Origin: Acetomicrobium hydrogeniformans ATCC BAA-1850
Lineage (GTDB): Bacteria > Synergistota > Synergistia > Synergistales > Acetomicrobiaceae
Direction of reading: 5' to 3'
Assembly: GCF_000160455.2 (NCBI RefSeq)
Contig: NZ_ACJX03000001.1
Span: forward strand, 434,001-498,000
Length of the DNA: 64,000 nt
Shown: positions 2,292 through 57,488 of the stretch, piece by piece
Layout: every line of letters starts with the position of its first letter
Numbering within the stretch: the first letter of the stretch is position 1
Program-made: the position numbers and the translations under genes
The notes under the pieces: model-generated
Seen by the model: only the letters and a program-made list of their open reading frames with translations
The model's database searches: none
Told to the model about the DNA's origin: nothing

Positions 2292-2345
2292 TTGATATAA
2301 TTTAGATGTACCTAACATATAGCTCAGAAGAGGAGGGGATGAAAT
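2292..2345 (+). promoter_or_regulatory. Possible -10 box and strong RBS of the rhodanese gene
   Basis: A TATAAT box lies near 2295-2300 within TTTGATATAATTTAG. The -35 side is weak. An AGAGGAGGGG ribosome binding site stands shortly before ATG 2346. This suggests the gene is transcribed from its own promoter rather than only read through from livF. Confidence 0.4.
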
Positions 2346-2657
2346 ATGCCAGATAGAATCGGAGTTGAAGAAGCGAGGAAGAAGGCACAGGCAGGGGAAG
2401 CACTTTTGGTTTGCGCCTATGCTGATGAAAATAAGTTTAAAATGGTGCATCTGGAAGGAGCCATATCTCTTCAGGAACTACAAAGCAAGGAGGATGGCTT
2501 GCCAAAGGATAAGGAGCTAATCTTCTACTGCGCCTGACCTGATGACGGCACAGCTGTCCGTGTGGCAGCTCAGTATGAAAGCAAAGGTTTTTCAAATGCA
2601 AAAGCATTGCGCGGCGGAGTGAAAGCCTGGAAAGAGGCAGGTTTTCCGATCCTTTAA
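2346..2657 (+). CDS. Rhodanese-like protein with in-frame UGA at the active site (probable selenoprotein)
   Basis: Reading from ATG 2346 gives a rhodanese fold whose last residues before a TGA at 2535-2537 are IFYCA. In the same frame the sequence continues for 39 more sense codons to TAA 2657, giving 103 residues in all. The downstream part holds PDDGTAVRVAAQ and LRGGVKAWKEAGFP, the normal C-terminal half of a single-domain rhodanese. Aligned by motif, the UGA falls in the active-site loop (CA-U-P), where related proteins carry Cys. Just after it, ACGG 2545-2548 can pair with CCGT 2558-2561 around a 9-base loop, at a distance plausible for a bacterial SECIS. I infer selenocysteine; the alternative is a single C-to-A nonsense mutation. 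No Sec machinery genes lie in the window. Confidence 0.75.
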
Positions 2658-2687: not shown

Positions 2688-2810
2688 TTGGCGATCGAAG
2701 AAAGAAAACAAAATAAAGAGGTTTCCAACGAGGAAAAGGAAAAACTTATGAAGGAACTTTTTGAGCAGCTCGACGGATGTGCCGGATGTCCTGGCTGCTG
2801 TAACGAATAG
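2688..2810 (+). CDS. 40-residue cysteine-rich mini-protein downstream of the rhodanese
   Basis: A TTG start at 2688 follows GGGAGG with about 8 bases spacing, and the frame ends at TAG 2810. The N-terminal 30 residues are charged and helical in character (many E and K). The tail DGCAGCPGCCNE holds a CxxCxxCC cluster ending two residues before the stop. The competing ATG at 2684 in another frame runs into a stop and has no motif. The gene starts 30 bases after the rhodanese and precedes the shared terminator, so the two form a likely operon. A metal, persulfide or selenide carrier role is speculation from the cysteine cluster; I do not recognise a named family. Confidence 0.6.
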   Translation: MAIEERKQNKEVSNEEKEKLMKELFEQLDGCAGCPGCCNE

Positions 2811-2821
2811 TTCTTAACGAT

Positions 2822-2860
2822 AACAACAAAGAGGGGAGACTCCCCTCTTTGTTGTTATTT
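2822..2860. terminator. Bidirectional rho-independent terminator
   Basis: A perfect 16-bp stem, 2822-2837 with 2841-2856, encloses a 3-base loop. T-rich sequence follows on the plus strand and the A-rich start of the stem gives a T-run on the minus strand. It sits between convergent units: the rhodanese/mini-protein pair and the arsC end. Confidence 0.88.
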
Positions 2861-57273: not shown

Positions 57274-57418
57274 AAAAAAATTAGTCCCCTTCCCGCCGGG
57301 AAAAGGACTAATGTTCTTTCTCCTCCTTTCCGAGCGGGAGGCCCTTTCGTTTCCGAAAAGACCCTATCGGTCAACGCTCATAGACCGCAAAGATCCTTAG
57401 AACCGTTGACTCGGAGGT
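57274..57418 (-). promoter_or_regulatory. Molybdenum/tungsten cofactor (Moco) riboswitch candidate with terminator
   Basis: On the minus strand, 57418 down to about 57316 shows Moco-RNA features: CUCC at the 5' end and GGAGG at the 3' end for the basal stem, GTCAACG pairing with CGTTGAC, a CTAAG/TATG tetraloop-receptor-like pair, the hairpin CTTTTCGGAAACGAAAG with a GNRA-type loop, and GCCTCCC...CGGAAAGGAGG. It is followed by a terminator: TTAGTCC 57281-57287 with its complement 57305-57311, and a T-run (57274-57280). Direct control of tupA by the cofactor is the likely meaning. Recognition is by eye only. Confidence 0.8.
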
Positions 57419-57488
57419 TATATTATTAAAATTAAGATATGTTTACATTGATAATAATACTAAACATAAAAATAAATGTCAATGAAGG

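Follow-up and report, generated by a model that had tools for sequence, protein, structure and literature searches.

A probable selenocysteine-containing rhodanese with a Cys-x-Sec active-site loop in Acetomicrobium hydrogeniformans

Within a 64,000-nucleotide stretch of the Acetomicrobium hydrogeniformans ATCC BAA-1850 genome (contig NZ_ACJX03000001.1, positions 434,001 to 498,000; hereafter, the window), a short forward-strand gene encodes a single-domain rhodanese whose reading frame contains one UGA codon, at residue 64. The sequence evidence indicates that this UGA is very probably read as selenocysteine (Sec), aided by an mRNA hairpin at 2552-2570. Comparison with relatives, genomes and solved structures establishes the UGA as a coded residue, the hairpin as an element of the Sec insertion sequence (SECIS) type, the Sec machinery, the rhodanese fold and the CxU arrangement (Cys, any residue, Sec) of the active-site loop. 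Because more than 60 relatives keep both the UGA and the hairpin, we regard the gene as intact and as representing a type of selenoprotein that is known but has been little described. Conventional gene callers would truncate the protein after 63 residues and thus miss the gene, which makes this rhodanese family easily misannotated.

Results

The rhodanese domain extends across the UGA codon

Translation of the frame 2346-2657 (+) gave 103 codons and a final TAA, with the UGA at 2535-2537 as the sole internal stop. This bore out the initial annotation of this DNA, which had placed the only stop in the loop IFYCA-UGA-PDDGTA of a frame that continues to a TAA. The ATG is preceded by AGGAGGGG, and the gene has a good, probable ribosome-binding site. 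With the UGA translated as a residue, the Pfam family Rhodanese (PF00581) matched residues 27-98 with 36.9 bits (cut-off 22.2), and the domain therefore runs across the UGA. The AlphaFold2 (AF2) model of the full-length protein has a predicted local distance difference test score (pLDDT) of 89.3, and it was superimposed on E. coli GlpE (1gmx) with a TM-score of 0.82 and a root-mean-square deviation of 1.8 Å.

The UGA had also been assigned to the catalytic loop. This holds for the loop itself, in which the CxU motif is present as FYCAU, but the canonical nucleophile is retained: in a profile alignment it is Cys62, not Sec64, that aligns with the catalytic Cys of solved rhodaneses (the FYC cysteine of 6mxv, YnjE), and Sec64 follows two residues later. 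A 27-sequence alignment revealed a further invariant cysteine, Cys23, which replaces the Asp of the DVR motif when aligned to the VDVR of BH2092. In the C-terminal half, which is kept in all intact subfamily copies, G81, G91 and W95 are likewise invariant.

These residues bear on the idea that the UGA is a regulatory switch, for example in selenium sensing, with the 63-residue polypeptide as the normal product and readthrough as a rare event. Some ground for this idea lies in the constant competition between termination and Sec insertion at UGA codons. However, the 63-residue product would lack the post-loop helix, the strand E85-88 and the helix 91-97 of the rhodanese fold, and all three invariant residues of the C-terminal half would be lost with them. 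We consider such a switch very unlikely.

The UGA codon is fixed among relatives from at least seven phyla

Relatives were collected in a GTDB-wide scan with a pattern that ends ahead of the Cys/Sec residues, so the pattern itself does not select for UGA. The 61 subfamily loci obtained (L048-L108) span at least seven phyla, including Desulfobacterota, Nitrospirota, Acidobacteriota, Planctomycetota and Synergistota, and all of them have UGA at the same codon. The nearest named relative, Acetomicrobium sp. L048, encodes a 98% identical protein with the UGA kept, and a genome of the same species also carries a UGA-containing rhodanese. The gene is present in 10 of the 188 Synergistota genomes; in 61 Synergistota-order genomes, every strong match has UGA in that place. 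When 395 genomes from the phylum that contains Geomesophilobacter (Desulfobacterota) were searched with the profile, 27 matches scored above 115 bits, all with UGA; below them came one broken copy (83.5 bits) and then other rhodanese subfamilies (at most 71 bits), many of which also contain UGA. No relatives were found in viral contigs.

Random stops at this column had been named beforehand as one observation that would speak against a Sec reading; the column is instead fixed as UGA. A rhodanese gene that had died through a recent nonsense mutation, or had been sequenced wrongly, would also show a single internal stop, and one broken family copy does exist: L156, with the UGA and two TAA codons, is a decayed rhodanese gene and a real pseudogene that contrasts with the intact family. 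Nevertheless, a chance stop does not account for the same UGA in all 61 loci across these phyla, for the conserved C-terminal half of the intact copies, or for the sharing of the codon with the same-species genome and the 98% identical neighbor. The conserved column thus refutes the explanation by pseudogene or sequencing error, to which we give next to no credence.

Given the score gap and the UGA in every match above it, a Cys64 form of the subfamily was not found, either among the strong matches in the 395 genomes or among the 61 GTDB loci; the alignment with Cys-containing homologues that had been anticipated therefore has no counterpart inside the subfamily. Among relatives without Sec, the nearest are L011 and L012, in two Synergistota genomes (family f9), which retain Cys23 and Cys62 and have Ser (AGT) or Thr (ACC) in the place of Sec. 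Both are paralogues that share genomes with a form in which codon 62 is also UGA (see below).

A covarying hairpin lies at SECIS distance from the UGA

The initial annotation had proposed a small stem at SECIS distance, at 2545-2561. A hairpin does exist at that distance, but at about 2552-2570; the stem first proposed is not conserved and was rejected, since across 58 homologues it pairs in 39% of cells, a level that shuffles also reach. The hairpin consists of six conserved pairs (2553-2558 with 2564-2569), an extra A-U pair (2552/2570) and the loop CGUGU (2559-2563), with a conserved G at 2560. Over 58 distinct sequences, the corresponding columns 16-21 and 27-32 after the UGA have 91% of cells paired, compared with 84% in shuffles, and 32 cells changed on both sides; none of 500 shuffles reached this level. 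Pair 18/30, which joins two third codon positions, occurs as UA in 39 sequences, CG in 13, UG in 3, AU in 1 and GC in 1. The core of this stem was also recovered by RNAalifold. Within the loop, the G is invariant (63/63) and the U after it is present in 57 of 63, and this GU is kept although its codon encodes Arg, Gly, Ser or Trp. In L011 and L012, which lack the Sec codon, the hairpin is absent too, as read from their sequences.

The host genome encodes the machinery for Sec insertion

The 2.1 Mb host genome, of the phylum Synergistota, contains all the components whose presence had been put forward as a check: adjoining selA (574 bits) and selB (374 bits), a tRNA-Sec with anticodon TCA (79.7 bits), and selD (330 bits). 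The selD gene has one in-frame UGA of its own, and Sec is therefore apparently in use in this organism. In other phyla, SelA was found in 43 of 49 genomes that carry the rhodanese gene, the remaining six being draft genomes, and among the Synergistota genomes none without SelA carried it.

The frame would equally be open if selenium played no part and a suppressor tRNA or a changed genetic code assigned Trp, Gly or Cys to the UGA. We regard this as extremely improbable. UGA is the ordinary terminator of 15 of the 58 chosen open reading frames (ORFs) of the window, on which ground an altered genetic code was rejected; the genome holds tRNA-Sec, SelA, SelB and SelD; and recoding of this kind would leave the covarying hairpin without a role. 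The fixed UGA column, the Sec machinery and the PF00581 match across the UGA together support the identification of the gene as a Sec-containing rhodanese, and Sec would be expected to be inserted at position 64 in the host organism itself.

Several relatives carry two UGA codons in the loop

In seven of the 61 relatives (L063, L070, L071, L089, L103, L105 and L108) codon 62 is also UGA, giving a UxU loop (FY-U-A-U or FY-U-N-U) followed by a single downstream hairpin. The same arrangement, two UGA codons six bases apart with one hairpin downstream, was observed at L007:1669-1683 and L008:1669-1683. All these proteins are candidate double-Sec rhodaneses. On a tree of 64 proteins, the distribution of UxU needs four state changes, of which at least two are forced by well-supported branches. 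A single origin of UxU was considered and not adopted, on 99 columns that do not separate gains from losses. We read UxU as arising when the catalytic Cys was replaced, more than once, by a second Sec. A literature search found no prior description of UxU rhodaneses, the Haft and Tolstoy 2025 curation (cited in PMC13188914) lying outside that search. The UxU rhodaneses are a natural test case for the way in which a single SECIS element serves two close UGA codons.

Genomic surroundings

The features of the rhodanese locus are collected in Table 1. In other Synergistota genomes (L003, L005/L006 and L009) a Cys-rich ORF of 40-55 residues likewise follows the rhodanese, whereas no such ORF stands beside the relatives in other phyla. 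The companion in the window had no family match; this ORF, with the Cys-rich segment DGCAGCPGCC, is conserved only in Synergistota, and the product is a possible metal- or sulfur-binding partner. Elsewhere in the window, a LivG-like ATP-binding cassette (ABC) transporter ATPase ORF (923-1525) apparently lacks its N-terminal Walker A part, and no Walker A segment was readable just upstream of it; this may be a truncated gene. An Rfam scan of the window returned a single match, away from the rhodanese: a molybdenum/tungsten cofactor riboswitch (RF01055, 71.1 bits) at 57307-57428 (-).

Table 1 Features of the rhodanese locus (window coordinates)
Feature	Position	Strand	Basis
Probable ribosome-binding site, AGGAGG region	2330..2338	+	Sequence inspection
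Probable Sec-containing single-domain rhodanese, 103 aa, UGA64 predicted to be read through	2346..2657	+	Pfam, AF2 model, 61 homologues
Cys23 codon, motif ALLVCAY, invariant; place of Asp in the usual DVR motif	2412..2414	+	27-sequence alignment; VDVR of BH2092
TGC codon, Cys62, aligned with the canonical catalytic Cys; replaced by UGA in 7 relatives	2529..2531	+	Hidden Markov model alignment, solved rhodaneses
UGA codon, predicted Sec64	2535..2537	+	UGA in 61/61 subfamily members and 27/27 strong matches in the phylum of Geomesophilobacter
SECIS-type mRNA hairpin, starting 15 nucleotides past the UGA	2552..2570	+	Covariation over 58 sequences
Small companion ORF, 40 aa, ending ...DGCAGCPGCCNE, TTG start, own GGGAGGG box	2688..2810	+	Follows rhodanese in Synergistota
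Terminator-like hairpin closing the rhodanese/small-ORF unit	2830..2850	+	Pattern scan only

Discussion

Proposed function

The gene looks free-standing, and its function is thus judged from the fold and the loop chemistry. The product would be a small cytosolic selenoprotein. SelB and tRNA-Sec would decode UGA64 as Sec, directed by the hairpin about 15 nucleotides downstream, and readthrough would yield a full rhodanese domain with the active-site loop Cys62-Ala-Sec64. Cys62, the canonical nucleophile, would accept sulfane sulfur as a persulfide, which Sec64, perhaps with the help of Cys23, would attack or resolve; HS- would be released or the sulfur passed on, leaving a Cys62-Sec64 selenenylsulfide for reduction by a thioredoxin-type system. 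That the protein serves anaerobes as a selenium-dependent persulfide reductase or sulfurtransferase working through this selenenylsulfide is a tentative proposal, to which we give slightly less than an even chance.

Several points weigh against the overall account. The selenenylsulfide chemistry is proposed by analogy with other CxU and CxC proteins. Taken alone, the window sequence folds no better than its shuffles (z = 0.20), so the support for the SECIS element is comparative. Finally, no shared neighbors were found outside Synergistota, where no Pfam family occurred in more than three of 99 flanking ORFs, and the function is therefore without contextual support.

The main rival to this function is that of a selenium carrier, in which reduced selenium, bound by the loop as a Cys62/Sec64 perselenide, would be delivered to SelD for selenium assimilation, in place of sulfane sulfur chemistry. 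The subfamily is essentially confined to genomes with Sec machinery and no Cys form of it was found in the 395 Desulfobacterota genomes, both of which are consistent with such a role. On the other hand, the relatives examined share no neighbor family, hence show no linkage to sel genes, and most Sec users do without the gene, as its low frequency in Synergistota illustrates. We consider the carrier role unlikely and the resolution of a persulfide by Sec64 the most likely chemistry.

It is also possible, if rather doubtful, that the proteins make up a separate rhodanese subfamily that is Sec-only and lacks any Cys version, in which several lineages gained a second Sec at the catalytic position (UxU). 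If this were true, including the insertion of both Sec residues from one SECIS element, the subfamily would represent a sulfur- or selenium-transfer enzyme that needs selenium and has no sulfur fallback, in contrast to almost every selenoprotein known. It is unusual for a selenoprotein family to have no Cys counterpart, and such a family would be a clean case for what selenium does that sulfur cannot.

Comparison with known systems

GlpE-type single-domain thiosulfate sulfurtransferases share the fold of the window protein, as the comparison with 1gmx indicates, and have the Asp of the rhodanese DVR motif where the window protein has Cys23. They are not known to contain Sec or a CxU loop.

Sec-containing rhodaneses have been described before. 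A 2026 review lists five rhodanese selenoprotein forms, of which form 3 is the CxU type, NF041203, and states that Cys homologues far outnumber the Sec forms in nearly all selenoprotein families (PMC13188914). A 2016 survey named the Synergistetes as selenoprotein-rich and recorded a Sec-containing 'sulfurtransferase homologous to a rhodanese-like protein' from 24 organisms, with 25 selenoproteins (PMC5029168, Table 3). The window subfamily resembles this entry as a Sec-containing distant rhodanese and, compared by description only, may be the same. An ocean survey reported 19 Cys forms of the same sulfurtransferase family (PMC2398784), whereas none were found in the window subfamily. A precedent for double-Sec rhodaneses is TsoB (NF045694), a rhodanese-related, rhodanese/DsbD fusion-like selenoprotein with two Sec residues (UxxxxU, PMC13188914). 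However, TsoB is a fusion of 572 positions with a different Sec spacing, and the window protein scores 16.7 bits against its cut-off of 805.

A close published likeness is to NF041203 (rhodanese_LYCAU), which shares the rhodanese domain, the UGA-encoded CxU loop and related sequence. At 61.6 bits, the window protein falls well short of the equivalog cut-off of that family, 115 bits, and membership was rejected on this score. The true members in genomes G012 and G021 (140-158 bits) differ from the window subfamily in having a hydrophobic signal-like N-terminus and in lacking the VCAY Cys23; in both genomes they occur beside the window subfamily as separate paralogues. We therefore call the window subfamily a sister group of the published CxU rhodanese NF041203, and its apparent Sec-only state, recurring UxU forms and invariant Cys23 are possibly new.
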